A DNA stretch of 37,678 bases. Source: Tissierellia bacterium (GTDB lineage: Bacteria; Bacillota; Clostridia; Tissierellales; Tepidimicrobiaceae). This document shows positions 27,617 to 37,529 of the stretch, in pieces (positions within the stretch are counted from its first letter, which is position 1; the number at the start of each line of letters is the position of its first letter). The notes under the pieces are model-generated. The model was not told the DNA's origin. It saw only the letters and a list, made by a program, of their open reading frames with translations, and made no database searches. The stretch covers positions 1 to 37,678 of the forward strand of contig JAAYRD010000001.1 of NCBI GenBank assembly GCA_012518955.1, in the 5' to 3' direction. Made by a program: the position numbers and the translations under genes.

Positions 27617-28783
27617 TTATTGTAGATTTTTAGCAAAATCTAGATAAAATATTTTGTTTTTTATATCTTTCAATGCTCTACCTTTCAATTCTCCTTCCAG
27701 CTTTCCAGATTTTTGTAGATGTTTCAATATTATATCTACATTATCAAACCACTTTTGGCTCGCTTCTATAGTGTAGATTGTAGTAGTACTCCTAGCCGCA
27801 TCTTTTGACATCCCGGTCCAATCTGCTACCAACTTTCCTGCGTCTTCCTTGTTTTCATTTGCATATTCCGATGCAATGACTAATAGCTTAAAAAGCTGTT
27901 CCATTTCCTCAGGATAATCTTCTATAGCATCATCTGTAGCTGAAAATACACAACATGGGAATTCATGCCATTTACCACTTGGTGGTAAATCTCTCATATC
28001 TAGAACAACCTTTCCTGCCTTTTCAACTTCAGCCAATTCTGGGAAAGGTGATAGCCCAATCCATCCATCTACTTGTTCATTTGTTAATGAAGGAATTAAG
28101 TTGGCAGTTCCTTTTAAGTCTAGTAATAGTATATCTGAGTTTATATCATCCGGGTCTTCTGTAGCCATTATATTCATTTCTTTCATTACTGTTTCAAACA
28201 GAATTGCAGAGACATTATCAGGTGAGGGGTAGCCTATTATTACAGGTTTGTCCTGTATCTTTACATATTCTATAAAATCATCTGCATTGTTTATAGGTGA
28301 ATCTTCTGACATCACTAGTCCAATACCATCAACATTAATAGGCCCTAATATCTTTATTTTATGACCATCGTCTATAACAGTCAATGGAAGATCTATAGAT
28401 GAAAGACCCATTTGCAAGTCACCTTGAGTCATCATAGCCATTATTTCTTCTCCATCATCGACTGCTACAAGATCTATATTAGCTATCTCATCATCACCAG
28501 ACATAAGTACATATTCTTCTCCACCTACAACCTCTTTTAAGTACACACCTTCATCTTTAAACTCTTCATTCATAGCTGCTGCTACAATTAAAGGTGCTTG
28601 ATGGTTGCTAAAGATATAGCCAATACTTAATGTGGGAATATCATTTGATTCCTCTTTTTCTTCTTCTATTTCTTCCACTTCTTCCTTTACTGTCTCCTCT
28701 TCCTTTTCCTTGCTAGCACACCCTACCATTAAGGTCAATACTATTACCAGTGCTAATACAAAACACAAACCTCTTCTTTTCAA
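27617..28783 (-). CDS. ABC-type substrate-binding lipoprotein, NrtA/SsuA-like, Ser variant of the Sec/Cys receptors
   Basis: Extracellular receptor of the nitrate/sulfonate/taurine class, 388 aa. TTG start with GAGGAG 8 nt upstream. Signal peptide, lipobox MVGC (Cys22), then an extremely Glu-rich linker to about residue 48. The mature part aligns by eye with the tandem receptors at 33307-35647: SIGYIFSNHQAPLIVA here against NVGYYNUDHMIGGPVG, and EFPCCVFSATDD against GVCCAFSLN. At the Sec/Cys site it has Ser, the ordinary state for the class. No permease or ATPase is adjacent on this transcript; it may share the one at 31001-32574. Monocistronic, between its own promoter and terminator. Confidence 0.8.
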   Translation of the reverse strand: MKRRGLCFVLALVIVLTLMVGCASKEKEEETVKEEVEEIEEEKEESNDIPTLSIGYIFSNHQAPLIVAAAMNEEFKDEGVYLKEVVGGEEYVLMSGDDEIANIDLVAVDDGEEIMAMMTQGDLQMGLSSIDLPLTVIDDGHKIKILGPINVDGIGLVMSEDSPINNADDFIEYVKIQDKPVIIGYPSPDNVSAILFETVMKEMNIMATEDPDDINSDILLLDLKGTANLIPSLTNEQVDGWIGLSPFPELAEVEKAGKVVLDMRDLPPSGKWHEFPCCVFSATDDAIEDYPEEMEQLFKLLVIASEYANENKEDAGKLVADWTGMSKDAARSTTTIYTIEASQKWFDNVDIILKHLQKSGKLEGELKGRALKDIKNKIFYLDFAKNLQ

Positions 28784-28910: not shown

Positions 28911-30950
28911 TTATAAGGATGTGAGTTTCACCAATAACGCCCTATCTGGTGGGAATCCACTTATGGGATCTAAGTTTTCATTGTCCGTAAGTTCATTTGC
29001 ATTGGCATCATTCCAGCCATGTGAAATCAAAGCTGTTGTAGGTAATACATCTTCCGTTATTTCAGCCTTTAATTTTATGCTTCCCCTTAGACTTTCAACC
29101 TTAACCATATCTCCATCCTTAATCTTTTTCCTTTCTGCTATCTGAGGATTAATTTTGACCTTTGCCACCTCTTCTTGGCTTTTATAACCGTTGAGAGACT
29201 CTATGTTTCTATATCTTGAATGATAATATTGTAAATACCTAGCTCCAGTTGATAATACCAGTGGGTATTCCTCTGCTAATTCTTTCGTTGATAATGGACT
29301 TTCAGCTGGTTCATTATATATAGGCAAAGGATCATATCCTGATTTCTCTAAAGTTGTAGAATATATCTCCACTTTTTTAGAAGGGGTATTGAATCCATTT
29401 TTAGTATATTTCTTTTCTTCAAAGGTTCTATATTTATACCCATAGTTCATATTAAGCATTTCTTCAAATGTTTTTCCTATCTTTTGAAACCTATATCCTA
29501 TAGCCTCTTCATCAGAATTCCAAGGAAAAGCTTCTTCAAGTCCCATACCTTTGGCTATATCAGAGATAAATTTACACTCTGATATACCTTGTTTGCTCTC
29601 TATTAATTTAGGTGCTAAGCCTACTATACCGTCACCAGAACTATCCACACCATTCCATATCTCATACCTTTCTATAGGGAATGTTCCTGGAATGATGATA
29701 TCTGCCATCTTAGCTGTTTCAGTCATAAAATTATCCATTACCACTAAAAAATCTAAAGCTTTTAATGCTTCCCTTAGCTTATTAACATTAGGCCATGTTA
29801 AGATAGGATTACTTCCAATGATCATCATTCCTTTTAATGGATAGGGTTTGTCTTCTAATATTGCATCGCTAAATATATTGGCTTGTGCACTATTATAATT
29901 AGCACAGAACAGCGGATATTCAGATTTCCCTATAGGTTCCCTATTGTATTTAACATTCTCCAACTCTAGAGAAGATAAAGGGGGAGGAGGACTCATAGTA
30001 GCTCCTCCAATTATATCTATATATCCCATAATTGCTTGAAGTATTGAAATTGCTCTAGCTGTTTGAAATCCATTTGATAAAAGCTCTATTGCTATTCCAG
30101 GAGAAATGTTCCCTGGTTTATTGTTGGCAAATATCCTAGCACCTTCTACAATAAGCTCCTTAGGAACATCTGTAATCTTTTCAACCTTTTCCGGTATATA
30201 GTCTTTGACTAATTCAACTAGTTTGTCAAAACCTACGGTCCATTCTTCTACAAAATCTTTGTCGTAGAGTTCTTCCTCAATTATTATATGGATTAGACCC
30301 AAGGCTAATGCCCCGTCTGTTCCTGGTCTTAGTTGTAAATGAACATCTGCCCTTTTGGCAGTATAGGTTTTTTGAGGGTCTACTACAATCAATTTAGCCC
30401 CATTATTTATAGCCTTGTTTATATCCATCATTTGACTCGGCCTAGAATTCATAGGATTATATCCCCACAAAACTATACATTTACTATTTTTATAATCAGC
30501 ACTAGGAAGAACCCCTACAGTCATCTTATTTGCCATCTCCTTTGATAGATGACAATGGCTTCCCGCTGATGATTGGTTTGGAGTACCATAAGCTTGTCCA
30601 AACCTTCTTACATGTCCTGAAAATTGCTTTCTAACCCCTGCTTCTCCTGTATGTACTGCCAATGATTCACTTCCAAAATTTTCTTTTAAGTATGTAAATT
30701 TTTCAACTATAATATCAATTGCCTCTTCATAGCTTATTTCATGCCAATTCCCATTTTCATCTTTTTTCATTGGACAACTCAATCTATCCTTAGCGTAGAG
30801 CATCTCAGGCAATGCCCTTCCCTTAGGACAAGTAAATCCTTTAGATATAGGATGTTCCTTGTCTCCCTTCACAGAGAGCACCTTGTTATCTTCCACCATT
30901 ACTTCAATTCCACAATTTCCACTACAAAGAGTACATATTCCTTTAGCCAC
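28911..30950 (-). CDS. Molybdopterin (bis-MGD) oxidoreductase, FDH/thiosulfate reductase superfamily, Cys ligand
   Basis: DMSO-reductase-superfamily enzyme, 679 aa, cytoplasmic (no Tat signal). Residues 1-55: 4Fe-4S domain with CTLCSGNC (C6, C9, C13) and CPKG (C41; the following Lys is the usual electron relay). Residues from about 55 to 550: molybdopterin domains; AGSHCHLS places Cys133-His134 where E. coli FDH-H has Sec-His, so Mo or W is probably Cys-ligated. C-terminal from about 570: cofactor-binding domain with LVLSTGARYLQYYHSRYRN. Start at GTG 30950 (MAKGICTLC) because AAGGTGG lies 8 nt upstream; the track's ATG 36 nt earlier has no ribosome site. 50 nt after the ABC ATPase gene, apparently the same operon. 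No partner subunit visible. Substrate unknown. Confidence 0.88.
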   Translation of the reverse strand: MAKGICTLCSGNCGIEVMVEDNKVLSVKGDKEHPISKGFTCPKGRALPEMLYAKDRLSCPMKKDENGNWHEISYEEAIDIIVEKFTYLKENFGSESLAVHTGEAGVRKQFSGHVRRFGQAYGTPNQSSAGSHCHLSKEMANKMTVGVLPSADYKNSKCIVLWGYNPMNSRPSQMMDINKAINNGAKLIVVDPQKTYTAKRADVHLQLRPGTDGALALGLIHIIIEEELYDKDFVEEWTVGFDKLVELVKDYIPEKVEKITDVPKELIVEGARIFANNKPGNISPGIAIELLSNGFQTARAISILQAIMGYIDIIGGATMSPPPPLSSLELENVKYNREPIGKSEYPLFCANYNSAQANIFSDAILEDKPYPLKGMMIIGSNPILTWPNVNKLREALKALDFLVVMDNFMTETAKMADIIIPGTFPIERYEIWNGVDSSGDGIVGLAPKLIESKQGISECKFISDIAKGMGLEEAFPWNSDEEAIGYRFQKIGKTFEEMLNMNYGYKYRTFEEKKYTKNGFNTPSKKVEIYSTTLEKSGYDPLPIYNEPAESPLSTKELAEEYPLVLSTGARYLQYYHSRYRNIESLNGYKSQEEVAKVKINPQIAERKKIKDGDMVKVESLRGSIKLKAEITEDVLPTTALISHGWNDANANELTDNENLDPISGFPPDRALLVKLTSL

Positions 30951-31000
30951 ATCTTCACCCACCTTAATATATTCAAAATAAATCATTTCTATATATCTTA

Positions 31001-31765
31001 TTAATCCTCTGTCATCTCCGGACTTGCCTTTGTTAAGGCTATAGTCAATTGATTTTTATACTTCTCATACTCAATAGATTTCCTATTCCTAGGCCTATCC
31101 AACTCTATATTCATATCTTCTACTATTTGACCTTTATTGGTAGACATAACTATAACCCTATCACTTAAATAAACTGCCTCATCTACATCATGAGTAACCA
31201 TAACCACTGTTGTCCTATCCCTTAGCCAAATTTCTTCCAATTCATCCTGTAGGCTCTGTCTCATCTGAAAGTCCAAAGCTCCTAAAGGCTCGTCCATTAG
31301 AAGTACACTTGGTTTAGTAGCCAAGGCCCTAACCAATGCAGTCCTTTGTTTCATTCCTCCAGAGATTTGGTGGGGATATAGCCCTTCCCTACCTTCCAAT
31401 TGAGACATTTCCAGCAGAACTTTCAGTCTTTCTTCCCTTTCTGCCTTCGGCATCTTTATTTGCTTCATTGGAAATAATATATTATCTTTCACCGTCATCC
31501 AAGGAAATAAGGCATAGTTTTGGAATACAAATCCTCTATCTGGACCTGCTTTTACAACCTTTTTTCCTTCCACTATTATTGAGCCTGAATCAGGTTTTTG
31601 AAATCCCGCTATTATAGTTAGCAAAGTAGTCTTCCCACAACCCGAAGGTCCAAGTAATGATATAAATTGTCCCTTGTCCACTTCAAAGCTAATATCCTTA
31701 AGTACTTGATTTATATTTCCGTTACTGATAAAGGTTTTATTGATTGCATCCACCGTTAGTTCCAT
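31001..31765 (-). CDS. saoA: ABC transporter ATPase of the selenoprotein importer (SsuB/TauB-like)
   Basis: Energises the importer whose permease is encoded just upstream, 254 aa. Walker A GPSGCGKTT, VFQNYALFPWMTV, signature ISGGMKQRTALVRAL, Walker B VLLMDEPLGALD, H-loop VMVTHDVDEAV: the pattern of nitrate/sulfonate/taurine ATPases. The track starts at 31783, but that ATG has no ribosome site and lies inside the permease reading frame after the Sec codon is read through. ATG at 31765 overlaps the true permease stop as TAATG, with GGAGG 11 nt upstream, a coupled start. The name follows the Sao set from memory. Confidence 0.88.
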   Translation of the reverse strand: MELTVDAINKTFISNGNINQVLKDISFEVDKGQFISLLGPSGCGKTTLLTIIAGFQKPDSGSIIVEGKKVVKAGPDRGFVFQNYALFPWMTVKDNILFPMKQIKMPKAEREERLKVLLEMSQLEGREGLYPHQISGGMKQRTALVRALATKPSVLLMDEPLGALDFQMRQSLQDELEEIWLRDRTTVVMVTHDVDEAVYLSDRVIVMSTNKGQIVEDMNIELDRPRNRKSIEYEKYKNQLTIALTKASPEMTED

Positions 31766-32574
31766 TACTGTGCGTGCCTCCATTTAGTAAGTGTTTTATT
31801 AATAATTTGTAGTATCCTATCGATACCAAAGCCAACAAACGCAGACATAAACATCAGTGCCATAAGCACATCTGTTTGCATTCTAGTTTGGGCTTCAACC
31901 ATAGAGTAGCCAAGACCGGCACTCGTCGCTATGAACTCCGCTCAGACAACGGACATCCAACCAGTACCTACAGCAATCCTTGCTCCTGTAAGCACATCGG
32001 GTATTGAAGCTGGAATTATTACATTAACAAATATACTAAGTGGACCTGCTCCCATACTCCTGGCTGCATTATAGTAATCCTTTGAAATACCCCTAACTCC
32101 TTGCATTGTATTGAGTATTATTGGAAATACTCCAGAAAGCGCAATCATGAATAAAGTTGGTCCATCCCCTATTCCTAGCCAAATAATGGTTAAAGGAACC
32201 CAGGCCATAATAGGTACCTGTCTTACCGAGTCTATAATACCTCCTAGAAGCTTTTCAGCTAGCTCCGAAAGACCCATTATATATCCTATGGGTATCCCTG
32301 CCAACAACGCATATAGAAATCCCTTAAGTACTCTTTTCATAGTAATTGACAAATTTAGTAATATCTCTGGATCTGTGACGGAACTAACTAATGCTTTAGC
32401 TATTGCCATAGGCGTAGGTAGTAATAATGGTGAATCTATCCTAATAGCTCCAAAATACCATATTCCAATGACTCCAACAAATACAAGTCCCCTATATATC
32501 CTTTCTTTTATATCTCTTTTTTTCATTTCTGAGTATCTTGATCTTCCTTTATAGAGAGAAGCTTTATTTTCCAT
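31765..32574 (-). CDS. saoP: ABC transporter permease, selenoprotein (TGA read as Sec)
   Basis: SsuC/TauC-type membrane subunit, 269 aa including Sec211. The track stops at TGA 31942-31944, but the frame continues AEFIATSAGLGYSMVEAQT... to TAA at 31765, and this tail is what relatives have (WMSxVAAEMxxxxxGLGY). The EAA loop NAARSMGAGPLS and PASIPDVLTGAR lie before the Sec; Sec directly precedes the conserved Ala-Glu in the next membrane segment. Start at 32574 has GGGGGG 8 nt upstream but overlaps saoB by 52 nt; ATG 32526, overlapping the saoB stop as ATGA, is an alternative giving 253 aa. Pseudogene status is unlikely given conservation past the TGA and the intact neighbours. Confidence 0.85.
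31905..31923 (-). promoter_or_regulatory. Candidate bacterial SECIS hairpin of saoP
   Basis: 18 nt after the UGA the mRNA can form AGUGCC-GGUCUU-GGC(U)ACU: six pairs with one bulged U. The GGUCU in the loop is the element SelB contacts in the E. coli fdhF SECIS. Position and loop fit a bSECIS; other Sec genes here have weaker-looking candidates (for example CUGGU/ACUAG, 37471-37492). Confidence 0.5.
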
Positions 32575-33314
32575 TTTTCTAACCCCCCTTCTTCTAAATC
32601 AGTTTTAGTGTAGTTGTAAAAATGTTGTTTCAATAAATTTTCTTCCTCCATCAATTCTTCTAAGGATTCATTATATATCTTTATAAATTTCTTAAATTGT
32701 CTAGTTTTCTTAAACTCTGTATTAGATAGTAGAACATAGGTGGTATAATCTCCATCAACTACTGTATCTTCCTTTGTTCCATTTAAATGTACTCCCTTTA
32801 TAAAATCAATTATAATTGCATCCACTTCCCCTTTCTCTAATGCATAGGGAAGAGCTCCCACCATCATTGAAACTATTTCTACATCTTCTCCAAATCTTTT
32901 CCTTATTAAATCTATTTGATAATCCCTATCCTGAGTCATACCAACTACTTTAGGACTCTGGGTATTCATAACAAATATATCTGAATTCATCGTGCATTCA
33001 GAGATTACCTCAAACCCTTCCGTATTTTCAAGATATTCTTTAGCTGCCTCTTTGCATATAATTGCCATATCCAATAAATCTGAGCTCAAGGCCCATTGAG
33101 AAGTTTTGGCTCAGCAGTCCTTTATAAAATAGGCTTCTAATTCATCTCCCGCCTTTATTTTTTCATCTTTTATCATATAATCTACAACAAAACCAGAAAT
33201 ATCATCAGACACTCCAACCCTCACCTTTCCTCCCACCAATACTTCTGATGGGAGAAAAAAGGTTATGGTTATAGCTACTCCAATAATCAGTATTATTAGA
33301 AGTATTCTATTCAT
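32523..33314 (-). CDS. saoB: Membrane-anchored substrate-binding selenoprotein with Cys-Sec pair
   Basis: 263 aa with Sec68; the track shows two fragments (33111-33314 and 32523-33089) separated by TGA 33111-33113. Residues 3-22 form an uncleaved or signal-anchor helix (ILLIILIIGVAITITFF) with no lipobox Cys. The rest resembles a periplasmic-binding type 2 domain: VRVGVSDDISGFVVDYMI, then FIKDC-Sec-AKTSQWALSS..DMAIICKEAAK, then a second lobe (VGALPYALEKGEVDAIIID). Cys67-Sec68 is a vicinal thiol-selenol that could hold a soft metal or metalloid. Starts with an 8-nt overlap with the preceding receptor gene. I recall SaoB as an ABC substrate-binding (seleno)protein of this kind. Confidence 0.82.
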
Positions 33315-34413
33315 CTATTCCATCTATCTCCATTGCTTTTTGTTTAAATTCCTCATAGCCCATACCTATAGGAAATATTGGATCTACCTTTTCTTTGATA
33401 AATTCATCAAAATCGTCTAAATTAGCTGCATTGTAAATATCATAAGCTATTAGATCTTCAAACTCAGGCAATTTTTCTATTAAATCATATTTTTCATATA
33501 CATTATAAGCATGTTGGAAATTTTCTTCTTCAATTTGCCATGTTAAGGTTCTACCCTCTTCTACACATTTTTTATATATAGTCATGATTGCAACTTCTTC
33601 TGGAACATTATAATATTCAGCAAATATCTTTGCTGCTTCATAAGGATGCTCATATACATATTCTATACTCTTTTGATGGGCTAGTAATAACTTTTTAGCT
33701 AGCTCTGGATGCTCTTCTACGAATTTTTCATTTAAGGAGAAAGCACAACAAATACCCATTTTATCATCCATCTCCATGTAAGTAGCCATTATCTTACCAG
33801 TACCATCATAGACAGCCATAGAACCCCAAGGGTCACAAGCGGTAAAGGCCTTGATTTGACCAGTACTTAAAGCCATGTATGCATCTGCATCTGAACCAAT
33901 ATTTACTAGATCATAATCCTCTTCATCCGTAGATAGATTTAATATCTTTGAATATCCAGCTATCCAACCTTCACCTTTAGGATTACCAATAGCTACTTTT
34001 TGACCATATAATTCTTCTGGATCTTCTATATCATTTGCTACTACCAAATACATAGAACCTCCAATATGGTTGTTAGCTCCAATTAAAATTGGAGAACCTT
34101 GACCATTAGCAGCAATCAACCCTCTATTACCAATATATCCAGCATCCATCTGTCCTGCTGCCATAGCCTCTGGAACTTTACCATTTCCAGTTAACTTTAC
34201 ATTTAACCCCAACTCTTCATAAATTCCTGCTGCCTCACCAATTGGTGCACCTACCATATGGTCACAATTGTAATAGCCTAAATTGATTTCATAATCATCT
34301 GCAACATCTTTTCCAGCTATTGGTTTTGCTCCCGTATCTTTCTTGCCACAGCCCACCAAGGATGTAGCCATTAAAATTCCCACCAATAAGAACAATAGTA
34401 TTCTTTTTTTCAT
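33307..34413 (-). CDS. ABC substrate-binding lipoprotein, NrtA/SsuA-like, Cys form
   Basis: Extracellular receptor, 368 aa. Signal peptide MKKRILLFLLVGILM, lipobox LVGC (Cys22). The first strand of the mature domain ends in GYYNC (Cys50), exactly where the tandem copy at 34547-35647 has Sec. Other likely site residues: FTACDPWGSM and GICCAFSLN with a Cys pair. Start at 34413 (MKKR) is 10 nt from GGAGG; the track adds three codons. It overlaps saoB by 8 nt, so receptor and SaoB are coupled. Product of a tandem duplication; 50 bp at the 3' end are identical in both copies. It probably feeds the SaoP-SaoA transporter. Confidence 0.85.
   Translation of the reverse strand: MKKRILLFLLVGILMATSLVGCGKKDTGAKPIAGKDVADDYEINLGYYNCDHMVGAPIGEAAGIYEELGLNVKLTGNGKVPEAMAAGQMDAGYIGNRGLIAANGQGSPILIGANNHIGGSMYLVVANDIEDPEELYGQKVAIGNPKGEGWIAGYSKILNLSTDEEDYDLVNIGSDADAYMALSTGQIKAFTACDPWGSMAVYDGTGKIMATYMEMDDKMGICCAFSLNEKFVEEHPELAKKLLLAHQKSIEYVYEHPYEAAKIFAEYYNVPEEVAIMTIYKKCVEEGRTLTWQIEEENFQHAYNVYEKYDLIEKLPEFEDLIAYDIYNAANLDDFDEFIKEKVDPIFPIGMGYEEFKQKAMEIDGIDE
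33308..33357. repeat. 50-bp direct repeat, copy 1
   Basis: Identical to 34548-34597. Covers the last codons of the receptor gene (QKAMEIDGIDE) and the ATGAATA start of saoB. Confidence 0.9.
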
Positions 34414-34518
34414 GTTCACCATTCCTCCACTTTAGTTGTATATTTCTCTGATTATCATCATAAGAGCCATCCCATTGTATTACCACAATTTCCACCAAAT
34501 GTAATAGCTTATCTTTCT

Positions 34519-34554
34519 TTAAACAACCCATAGTATTAAGAATATCTTATTCAT
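34519..34554 (-). pseudogene. Possible remnant of a duplicated saoB start
   Basis: After the Sec receptor gene the minus strand reads MNKIFLILWVV and then TAA, overlapping the receptor stop exactly as saoB (MNRILLIILII...) overlaps the Cys receptor. It suggests the duplicated unit included the start of saoB and the second copy decayed. Only about 11 codons can be compared, and the first lie in the identical repeat, so the case is moderate. The remaining 100 nt up to the next gene show no saoB similarity. Confidence 0.4.
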
Positions 34555-35647
34555 CTATTCCATCTATCTCCATTGCTTTTTGTTTAAATTCCTCATAAGT
34601 CATACCTACAGGTAAAATCGGATCTACTTCTTCTTTTATGAAGGTATCAAAGTCTTTTGCTCCACATTCAGCCAATATTTGTTCATATACAACATCTTCA
34701 TACTCTGGCAACTTTTCTAAAAGATCATATTTTTCATATATACTATAAGCATGTTCAAAATTATCATGGTCTAATTTCCAAGTTAAGGTCCTACCTTCTG
34801 CAACGATCTTTTTATAGATAGTCATTATAGAAACTTCCAATGGAACACCAAAGTATTCAGAGAATATCTCAGCTGATTTATATGGATGTTTATAAACATA
34901 TTCTACAGATTTTGTATGAGCTAATACCAATTTTTTTGCCAAATCTGGATGATCCTTTATTAAGTTTGTATTTAGGGAAAATGCACAACATACTCCCATC
35001 CTATCGTCCATTTCCATATAGGTAGCCATAATTTTCCCTACCCCTTCATGTTCTGCCATAGATCCCCATGGATCACAACAAGTATATGCATCGATTTGAC
35101 CCATTTTTAATGCAGTAAACTTATCTGCATCCGAGCCTATATTGACCAATTCATATGCATCAGGATCATCAGTCAGATTTAATATCTTGCCATATCCACA
35201 TTGCCAAGCCTCACTAGTTGATGGATCTGGCATAGCAATTTTTTTACCTAATAAATCCTCTGGTTTTTCAATATCATTTGCTACAACTAGATACATAGAA
35301 CCACCTATATGATTATTCGCTCCTACTACTATTGGAGAGCCTAATGCATTGGCCCCATATAAGCCTCTTGTTCCTATATATCCTGCATCCATCTTCCCTG
35401 CTGCCATGGCCTCTGGAACCTGACCATTTCCAGTTAACTTTACATTTAATCCAAGCTCTTCATAAATTCCTGCAGCTTCCCCAACGGGTCCGCCTATCAT
35501 GTGATCTCAGTTGTAATATCCTACATTTAATTCATAATCCTCCGCAACATCTCCTGATTTTTTACCAGTGTCTTTCTTACTACATCCTGCTAAGGATGTA
35601 GCTACCATTACCCCTACTAGCAAAAATAGTAGTATCCTTTTTTTCAT
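34547..35647 (-). CDS. ABC substrate-binding lipoprotein, NrtA/SsuA-like, selenocysteine form
   Basis: 366 aa with Sec47. The track splits it into 35507-35707 and 34547-35500 at TGA 35507-35509. Read through, GYYN-Sec-DHMIGGPVGEAAGIYEELG lines up with GYYNCDHMVGAPIGEAAG of the Cys copy, and similarity continues without shift on both sides: the strongest Sec evidence in the window. Signal peptide MKKRILLFLLVGVMV, lipobox LAGC (Cys22). Additional cysteines in YTCCDPWGSM (the Cys copy has one fewer) and GVCCAFSLN. Start at 35647 is 10 nt from AAGGAG; two further ATGs just upstream are alternatives. It follows saoC by 31 nt. Confidence 0.9.
34548..34597. repeat. 50-bp direct repeat, copy 2
   Basis: Identical to 33308-33357; the 1,240-bp offset is about one receptor gene plus its spacer, marking a tandem duplication. 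Confidence 0.9.
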
Positions 35648-35678: not shown

Positions 35679-36146
35679 TCAGCAACAATCCTCCATTCCA
35701 TCTCCAAATAGATCCTTTAATTCTAGGCCTTCAACTCTAAATATGGCATATCCAAACTTTCCATCTTTAGATCCAGATACGATAAACTCCATCGGTGGCT
35801 TTTTATCTATATCTTTAAATTCTATTGTCTGGTTCTCTATTGGAGCTGGTACTTCTTCAGTAATTTCGTATTGACTTCCTTTATCTAAAACTACTACCAT
35901 TCCATTAGACCGTTTAGCCTTATTAAATATTACGATGAGGTCCTTCGTTCCATCACCGTTCATATCTTCGTATCCACATTTTAATATTTCATTATCCGGA
36001 TATTGGGATATAAAATGTTGTAATAGTTCATTGTCCAAGCTTACTCCTAAATCCTTCTCTTGTTTAATCTTATCCTGGCTAAATCCCCATATTCCTAGTC
36101 CAAAAATTATTATAATTACAATTGGAATTCTTAATTTTTTCCACAT
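35679..36146 (-). CDS. saoC: Membrane-anchored protein ending in Cys-Cys-COOH
   Basis: 155 aa. Residues 7-23 are an N-terminal membrane anchor (IPIVIIIIFGLGIWGF). The exported domain has DMNGDGTKDLIVIF, an EF-hand-like DxNGDGxxD loop as in VCBS/FG-GAP proteins, and later VSGSKDGKFGYAIFRVEG. It ends GDGMEDCC with two Cys as the last residues, a flexible vicinal dithiol. I recall a family called 'Cys-Cys-COOH (seleno)protein SaoC' that fits. The stop is TGA, but I take it as a real stop because the next gene's ribosome site and starts follow at once. ATG with GAGAGG 8 nt upstream; 14 nt after saoE. Confidence 0.82.
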   Translation of the reverse strand: MWKKLRIPIVIIIIFGLGIWGFSQDKIKQEKDLGVSLDNELLQHFISQYPDNEILKCGYEDMNGDGTKDLIVIFNKAKRSNGMVVVLDKGSQYEITEEVPAPIENQTIEFKDIDKKPPMEFIVSGSKDGKFGYAIFRVEGLELKDLFGDGMEDCC

Positions 36147-36160
36147 AGTTTCTACCTCTC

Positions 36161-37249
36161 CTAATTGAATGCCTTTTCAAAGCTATCTTTGACCTTTGGC
36201 ATAATCCCCTTTAAAAAGAATATAAATATTATAGCTGAGCATAAATATTTTAATGGTTCTGGCGCTGCAAATATGAGTCTATTTGCACTTTCTATGGATT
36301 TATCAATATTATTAAAATTAATTACCGGTTTAAATCCAGGCATCAATAGCTTATTTGTCAAAGCCCCTACTAATAATGCAGCTGTAGTCACTATAGTCCC
36401 ATACATTATAGCTGTTCTCTTACCAATTACATTGTAAATACTTATAAGTTCTGGAAAATTGGTAGCCGCTCCTGCCATTAAAAATGTAATAGCAACCCCT
36501 GGCGCCGCTCCACTAGCCACTAAAGCTGCTATGAAGGGGATGTGTCCTACAGCACAGACATACATTACTGTAGCCAGCACAGCAATGTTTCCAAGGGATA
36601 ACATGCTCGGATTCCCCAGATATTTTTGTATAAAGGTATCTGGGAAGGCCGTTATTATAAAACCACCTAAAAGCATACCTAGTATTACATATTTACTAAC
36701 TATTAAGGCCAAATCATTATATGCCCAAATCATTCCTGATTTTATCTTATCCTTTAATGTAAGATTGACTTTATCATCTAGGCTTGTAGCAATTATCTGC
36801 TCCTCTAAACCTGGCATTTTCAGTTCGTCCCCTCCAAATTTATTGGCTACAATTCCTATAATCATAGGAAGGGTAAATCCTACTATTAAGTATATAAGGG
36901 TAATCTCCTTCCCCAAAAGACCATAACTTAAAATAACTGCACAAGGATTTATTATAGGAGTAGATGTCATAAATGCTAACACAGGACCCAAGTATGCTCC
37001 TGAATAATACATACTCAATCCTAGAGGGATTGTCCCACAACTGCAAATAGGTAGAAACATTCCAGATATAGTTACTTTTAATAAAGAAACTATTTTAGTA
37101 TTCCCTAAAGATCTATGAAACCTTTGAGGAGATAAAACATCACGCAACAAACCTGCAATAGTAAAGCTAAATATTAGCCAGGGAGAAGCTCCATTTAGCA
37201 TACTTATGGCAGCAAGTAACATAGATTTTATAAAATCAAATATGATCAT
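36161..37249 (-). CDS. saoE: ArsP/DUF318-type permease (putative organometal(loid) exporter)
   Basis: Integral membrane protein, 362 aa, about 8-10 helices with a cytoplasmic loop near residues 140-170. The family signature FLPICSCGTIPLGL (Cys-Ser-Cys) is present, followed by TSTPIINPCAVILSY and, in the second half, AVGHIPFIAALVASGAAPGVA and LMAGAATNFPEL. Characterised ArsP members export trivalent organoarsenicals, so removal of a metal(loid) product is a reasonable inference. It lies 16 nt after saoT and 14 nt before saoC. AGGAG is 13 nt upstream of the ATG, a rather long spacing; no better in-frame start was found. Confidence 0.85.
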   Translation of the reverse strand: MIIFDFIKSMLLAAISMLNGASPWLIFSFTIAGLLRDVLSPQRFHRSLGNTKIVSLLKVTISGMFLPICSCGTIPLGLSMYYSGAYLGPVLAFMTSTPIINPCAVILSYGLLGKEITLIYLIVGFTLPMIIGIVANKFGGDELKMPGLEEQIIATSLDDKVNLTLKDKIKSGMIWAYNDLALIVSKYVILGMLLGGFIITAFPDTFIQKYLGNPSMLSLGNIAVLATVMYVCAVGHIPFIAALVASGAAPGVAITFLMAGAATNFPELISIYNVIGKRTAIMYGTIVTTAALLVGALTNKLLMPGFKPVINFNNIDKSIESANRLIFAAPEPLKYLCSAIIFIFFLKGIMPKVKDSFEKAFN

Positions 37250-37265
37250 TTAGACTATTCATCTC

Positions 37266-37529
37266 CTATTCATCCAACTCTTTAACCGCCTCTTCTATTG
37301 CTTTTTCTATGGTGTCCTTGGAAAGCCTTTCTATCTTTTTATTTTCATTGATAATCAAAGTTCCCCTAAAAATAACCCCATATTTTTTTATGTAATCAAA
37401 ATCCTTTCCAGCATAGTAAATCTTTACATCAACCTTATCCTTATATTTTGCTGCAGCAGCCTCTACAGCTCTAGTATTACCATCACAACCAGATCAGGTA
37501 TTTATAAATTCAACCAATACCTTAGACAT
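37266..37529 (-). CDS. saoT: Thioredoxin-like selenoprotein with UxxC motif
   Basis: 87 aa with Sec12, absent from the ORF track because TGA 37494-37496 lies near its start. The product begins MSKVLVEFINT-Sec-SGCDGNT: a beta strand then Sec-Ser-Gly-Cys, exactly the CxxC site of small thioredoxin-fold proteins with Sec replacing the first Cys. The rest fits the fold (RAVEAAAAKYKDKVDVKIYY, KYGVIFRGTLIINENK), although the usual cis-Pro before TLIIN is Gly. ATG has GGAGG 8 nt upstream. First gene of the selenoprotein operon and 16 nt before saoE. No signal peptide, so cytosolic: it could reduce or receive a metal(loid) in the cell. Confidence 0.85.

Follow-up and report, generated by a model that had tools for sequence, protein, structure and literature searches.

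The SAO locus of a Tissierellia bacterium is followed by a gene for a predicted molybdenum- or tungsten-dependent enzyme, here termed MoOx, whose closest relatives are mostly encoded in SAO loci as well. We tentatively propose, at a little under an even chance, that MoOx serves the SAO system as an optional enzyme of the cytosol and acts on the imported compound, taking two electrons and reducing it. The SAO pathway, which has a predicted importer, lyase, and exporter and no known substrate, probably includes such a further, putative catalytic step, and MoOx offers a candidate catalyst that could be purified to search for the substrate.

The SAO (Sec-assisted organometal) system, which reportedly goes back to Haft and Gwadz in 2023 and Haft and Tolstoy in 2025, is presumed to take up organometal compounds and degrade them. 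In the window (the whole stretch of 37,678 nucleotides analyzed here), the genes run on the minus strand in the order SaoT-E-C-X-X-B-P-A, from 37529 to 31001, with MoOx directly after them (Table 1). All of them, including both copies of SaoX, exceed their NCBIfam cut-offs, and four (SaoT, one SaoX, SaoB, and SaoP) have an in-frame TGA. With seven Sao families passing, the selenoprotein transport operon proposed by the first-pass annotation is confirmed. According to PMC13188914, the SAO system is an operon with six selenoprotein genes. In the NCBIfam search, no model named for an SAO molybdoenzyme was matched. The gene 3' of MoOx encodes an additional substrate-binding lipoprotein, SBP3, which scores only 28 bits against the SaoX model, below its cut-off. 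Relatives of SBP3 occur in three other SAO loci (L136:13345-14505, L067:7309-8472, and L135:7470) beside their own permease and ATPase; SBP3 of the window stands alone, with neither of these.

Table 1. Coordinates of MoOx, its motifs, and neighboring genes in the window, and of MoOx2 genes in other SAO loci
Feature	Position	Strand	Evidence
SBP3, extra NMT1-type substrate-binding lipoprotein 3' of MoOx	27617..28783	-	PF13379
MoOx, predicted [4Fe-4S]/bis-MGD (Mo or W type) enzyme	28911..30950	-	PF04879, PF00384, PF01568
Signature S-H-C-H-L-S-K around the Mo/W-ligand Cys	30540..30560	-	codons read from sequence
Four [4Fe-4S] Cys (Cys18, 21, 25, 53, ATG numbering)	30828..30935	-	invariant columns of alignment A1; alignment with AH, Psr, FDH
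SaoA, ABC transporter ATPase	31001..31783	-	NF040729, 441 bits, cut-off 360
SaoP, permease, in-frame TGA (Sec)	31765..32574	-	NF040733, 418 bits
SaoB, Cys-Sec substrate-binding selenoprotein, in-frame TGA	32523..33314	-	NF040727, 236 bits
SaoX copy 2, substrate-binding protein, Cys form	33307..34422	-	NF040735, 508 bits
SaoX copy 1, substrate-binding protein, in-frame TGA (Sec)	34547..35647	-	NF040735, 490 bits
SaoC, Cys-Cys-COOH protein	35679..36146	-	NF040734, 195 bits
SaoE, efflux transporter, ArsP_1 permease family	36161..37249	-	NF040736, 535 bits; PF03773
SaoT, thioredoxin-like selenoprotein, in-frame TGA	37266..37529	-	NF040730, 128 bits
MoOx2	L055:16204-18318
MoOx2	L056:985-3099
MoOx2	L057:16399-18513

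The open reading frame of MoOx (28911-30986) has two candidate starts: an ATG at 30986, giving 691 amino acids, and a GTG at 30950, giving 679. The better Shine-Dalgarno sequence belongs to the GTG (AAGGTGGGTGAAGAT-GTG), and the sequence directly 5' of this codon is AAGGTGGG. The GTG lies 50 nt from the SaoA stop (31001), as originally annotated, and the ATG 14 nt from it; the annotated ligand motif Cys133-His134 likewise holds for the GTG start and corresponds to Cys145-His146 in the ATG numbering used below. No terminator-like site was found in the gap between SaoA and MoOx. A promoter-like site (10/12) lies at 28851-28823, 5' of the SBP3 gene, although such sites are near chance overall (51 found versus 45.7 expected), and a terminator-like site lies 3' of the SBP3 gene at 27600-27576. 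The protein is full length: the Pfam domains Molybdop_Fe4S4, Molybdopterin, and Molydop_binding each score far above cut-off, so that the Fe4S4, molybdopterin, and dinucleotide-binding domains of the bis-MGD (MopB/DMSO reductase) superfamily are all present. No signal peptide or other export signal was seen by eye. From the sequence we infer a cytosolic protein with a bis-MGD cofactor that holds molybdenum or tungsten. Structure prediction of MoOx from six sequences gave a mean pLDDT of 59.6, with the active site below 50, a model too poor to support conclusions on fold or geometry.

The genome that contains the window encodes moaA, moeA, mobA, fdhD, a TupAB-like tungstate importer (its TupA scores 241 bits, below the cut-off of 400), and an AOR-type protein (L082, contig C145, 2520-16555). 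The importer and the AOR-type protein make tungsten possible for MoOx. A single PF00384 match in this genome raised the possibility that MoOx is its sole bis-MGD enzyme; this was ruled out by a fragment of an FDH alpha subunit on C145, which ends inside a gene (L082, 17552-17872) whose last 106 amino acids match FDH alpha.

Relatives of MoOx were collected from genome samples, none of them exhaustive, of the order (249 genomes), the class (391), the phylum (329), and family f82 (20). Ten proteins form a single clade in the tree (support 100/99): those from the window, G203, G644, G718, Tissierella creatinophila (G239), G243, G692, and G802, and two copies from G1036. A histidine stands just before the ligand cysteine in all ten and in none of 24 outside sequences; we refer to this group, with its motif S/C-H-C-[HNY]-x-S-K (SHC[HNY]xSK), as the SHC clade, and eight of its members have His-Cys-His. 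Within it, the proteins from the window, G203, G644, G718, and T. creatinophila make up a subclade (support 100/99). Our literature searches, whose scope did not extend to the original SAO papers, returned nothing specific on the SHC clade; MoOx marks an unstudied branch of a superfamily that is central to anaerobic chemistry. The absence of a nearby electron-transfer partner, noted at the outset for the window, is borne out more widely: no protein with a ferredoxin-type motif was found within ~3.5 kb of MoOx in the window, and a search of the other eight clade loci, covering 3 kb around MoOx wherever the contig extended that far, found no such partner gene either (only one flank is visible in G203, where the contig ends inside the MoOx gene). 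Outside relatives in G010, G504, G1033, and G1037 have a ferredoxin-type gene nearby.

Our survey of SAO loci covered 29 genomes with SaoB above cut-off, with up to 20 kb read around each SaoB gene. A MoOx of the SHC clade was present at the SAO locus in four of them: the window, G203, G644, and G718, the last three with proteins 69-79% identical to that of the window. Thus, four of the five subclade members are found in SAO loci, which represent two families of bacteria and two different gene arrangements, and the view that the enzyme belongs with the Sao genes is upheld; a subclade with no association to these genes is not what we found. The order in G203 is SaoX-B-P-A-L-MoOx. In G644 it is SaoB-A-P-X, C-E-D, and MoOx-SaoL, and G718 has the same arrangement (SaoB-A-P-X, C-E-D, MoOx) without SaoL adjoining MoOx. 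The probability that four of five subclade members lie beside SAO genes by chance is ~1e-8 if independence is assumed, although related loci are not independent. Within the order, SaoB is present in two of the four clade-bearing genomes and in 15 of all 249 (P = 0.019). Phylogeny provides a better test: a single clade uniting the SaoA proteins of the four MoOx loci is rejected (AU p = 5e-6), and the SaoE tree requires at least two changes for MoOx-bearing loci. Because the MoOx proteins themselves are close kin, MoOx and SAO have joined at least twice, or MoOx has moved between SAO loci.

These patterns bear on the possibility that MoOx works as a soluble dehydrogenase or reductase of a general kind (resembling FDH, PhsA, or S/N-oxide reductases) with another substrate, a neighbor of SAO genes by chance or hitchhiking. 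On the one hand, most SAO loci have no MoOx, and its presence at only 4 of 29 indicates that it is not essential to the SAO system. On the other hand, MoOx joined SAO independently on at least two occasions and adjoins Sao genes in four loci, which speaks against chance, and we regard this reading as improbable.

It had been suggested that the enzyme replaces or complements a lyase step. SaoL, the MerB-like lyase, was not matched in the genome of the window, an assembly of 200 contigs that is 97% complete, and the same model gave matches in 12 of the 19 genomes searched. Nevertheless, SaoL adjoins MoOx in two of the four loci, as SaoA-SaoL-MoOx in G203 and as MoOx-SaoL in G644, which indicates that MoOx adds to the lyase and is not its general replacement. 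Both SaoL and a clade MoOx are missing from two SAO genomes, G201 and G004; thus, SaoL is not strictly required for SAO, and a role of MoOx as a general substitute for SaoL is ruled out. Of the two suggestions, therefore, complementing fits better and replacing does not stand as worded, although replacement in the window organism alone is possible. In T. creatinophila, SaoL is encoded elsewhere in the genome, at a contig start (L080, G239:C59:182-712). The SaoL proteins of G203, G644, and T. creatinophila group together weakly (81/69), a hint that MoOx and SaoL move as a pair. Outside its SAO locus, G203 encodes another SaoL (L081, G203:C227), which follows a different ATPase and permease.

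Members of the clade outside SAO loci are also associated with transport. T. creatinophila, the fifth member of the subclade, and G243 have MoOx at other importers, and neither genome has SaoB. In T. creatinophila, G1036, G802, and G692, a sister importer cassette combines an SsuB-like ATPase, an SsuC-like permease, an NMT1 binding protein, and MoOx; MtaA/CmuA-type URO-D proteins accompany three of these cassettes, and a corrinoid protein or RACo accompanies those of G1036 and G692. In G243, the neighbor of MoOx is an ABC importer of the amino-acid type, and one of the two G1036 copies is next to an Opp-type operon. The common theme of the clade loci is the import of a compound and its handling in the cytosol, in many cases with methyl transfer. 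This theme bears on a different role, in which MoOx would act on the redox state of the pathway or on the released metal(loid), for example by regenerating oxidized Sec/Cys groups or by reducing the metal once it is freed and before SaoE exports it. The several in-frame TGA (Sec) codons and Cys-Cys motifs of SAO proteins are consistent with such a role, as is the presence of SaoE, SaoC, and SaoD in the G644 loci with MoOx and SaoL; however, the sister enzymes stand beside importers and methyltransferases without Sao proteins, which points to the imported substrate as what the loci share and makes this role quite unlikely.

Other enzymes were also seen in or near SAO loci. In four loci of Tissierella-type genomes that lack MoOx (L045, L046, L047, and L049), a URO-D methyltransferase and RACo are encoded ~5 kb from SaoB, as is a corrinoid protein in L047 and L049. 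HGD-D (PF06050, 2-hydroxyacyl-CoA dehydratase type) is encoded in or beside SAO loci L045-L049, L051, L067, L068, and L135-L138, accompanied by a BcrA-type activator ATPase in L068 and L045; it is possibly a further low-potential reductase of the SAO system. A second, distant bis-MGD enzyme, MoOx2, ends the SAO loci of three related genomes (G107, G108, and G109), where it lies ~90-120 nt beyond SaoX; in L055, greA comes next. It is ~29% identical to MoOx, groups with G018/G019, and has S-L-C-Y at the ligand; identity, motif, and tree rule it out as a MoOx ortholog, and MoOx2 represents a separate recruitment to SAO loci.

In the mechanism we favor, the Sao importer, or a related one, would bring the compound into the cell, where MoOx would act either on this compound or on the first product made from it. 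Cys145, with His144 and His146 on either side of it in the sequence, would hold the Mo- or W-bis-MGD center at which the reaction takes place. The two electrons would most likely come from a soluble ferredoxin or flavodoxin, and the reduced compound would then be in a state suited to SaoL, to a corrinoid methyltransferase, or to efflux through SaoE; a pentavalent or otherwise oxidized organometalloid is an example of a fitting substrate. Judged by its relatives, MoOx is more likely a reductase than a hydratase, because most of them are redox enzymes and electrons could be supplied by a soluble ferredoxin or flavodoxin. A bolder version is doubtful in our view: the SHC clade would be a new molybdo- or tungstoenzyme family for imported organometal(loid) or methylated compounds, with a reaction new to the superfamily (e.g., reductive activation or cleavage of a carbon-metal(loid) bond), standing in for SaoL in the window organism and working alongside it in others. 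If MoOx does act on organometal(loid)s, its reaction would be of a new type and would matter for the cycling of mercury or arsenic under anaerobic conditions.

Among known enzymes, the nearest solved structure by sequence is acetylene hydratase (2E7Z, 34% identity over aligned columns), with 313 bits versus 241 for 2VPW, the next, which is followed by formate dehydrogenases. It is likewise a solo cytosolic [4Fe-4S]/bis-MGD enzyme with a cysteine metal ligand, and in the alignment MoOx keeps the four cluster cysteines, the CPKG lysine, Cys145, and His146. MoOx might therefore be a non-redox enzyme like its nearest solved relative, in which W(IV) or Mo(IV) would activate the substrate toward hydration or hydrolytic cleavage and electrons would not be transferred on balance. 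Such chemistry would explain the missing partner subunit, and it is consistent with the lack of a linked electron-donor gene and with the tungstate importer and AOR-type protein of the genome. However, Asp13, which is specific to the acetylene hydratase subfamily and essential there (PMC12096430), is absent from MoOx (CDINC in acetylene hydratase versus CSGNC in MoOx), its site being occupied by Ser, Gly, Asn, or Thr in the SHC clade and by Ser in the window. Moreover, Met140-Cys141-Ile142 of acetylene hydratase corresponds to His144-Cys145-His146 in MoOx, and the true acetylene hydratase branch (acetylene hydratase with L003) is separate from the MoOx clade in the tree. The missing Asp13 and the separate branch rule out acetylene hydratase itself, and we consider non-redox chemistry unlikely and favor reduction.

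The first-pass annotation had compared MoOx with formate dehydrogenase (FDH). The Cys-His pair is indeed common to both, as are the domain make-up, the Fe4S4 motif, and the CxKG lysine when cytosolic FDH (FdhF; TIGR01591) is considered; the likeness goes no further than this, and acetylene hydratase is the nearer solved relative. The residue before the ligand is Val or Leu in FDH and His in MoOx, and GGATMSPPPPLSS takes the place of the FDH segment LRGQNN with its catalytic arginine (Arg333 in E. coli FdhF). The best NCBIfam scores of MoOx, Fdh-alpha with 373 bits and PhsA with 306 bits, would suit a general dehydrogenase or reductase, but they are about half of the cut-offs (666 and 694, respectively), and no named NCBIfam family reaches its cut-off. 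The Fdh-alpha score and the missing arginine segment rule out a formate dehydrogenase. The polysulfide/thiosulfate reductase subunits PsrA/PhsA (2VPW), ~30% identical, are also Cys-ligated bis-MGD catalytic subunits; in contrast to them, MoOx has no nearby gene for an Fe-S or membrane subunit and no visible export signal, and the PhsA score together with the lack of a ferredoxin-motif gene nearby excludes this assignment.

Compared with the SAO system of Haft and Gwadz (2023) in the description given by PMC13188914, the window shares SaoT, E, C, X, B, P, and A; its genome has no SaoL, and its locus adds MoOx and SBP3.
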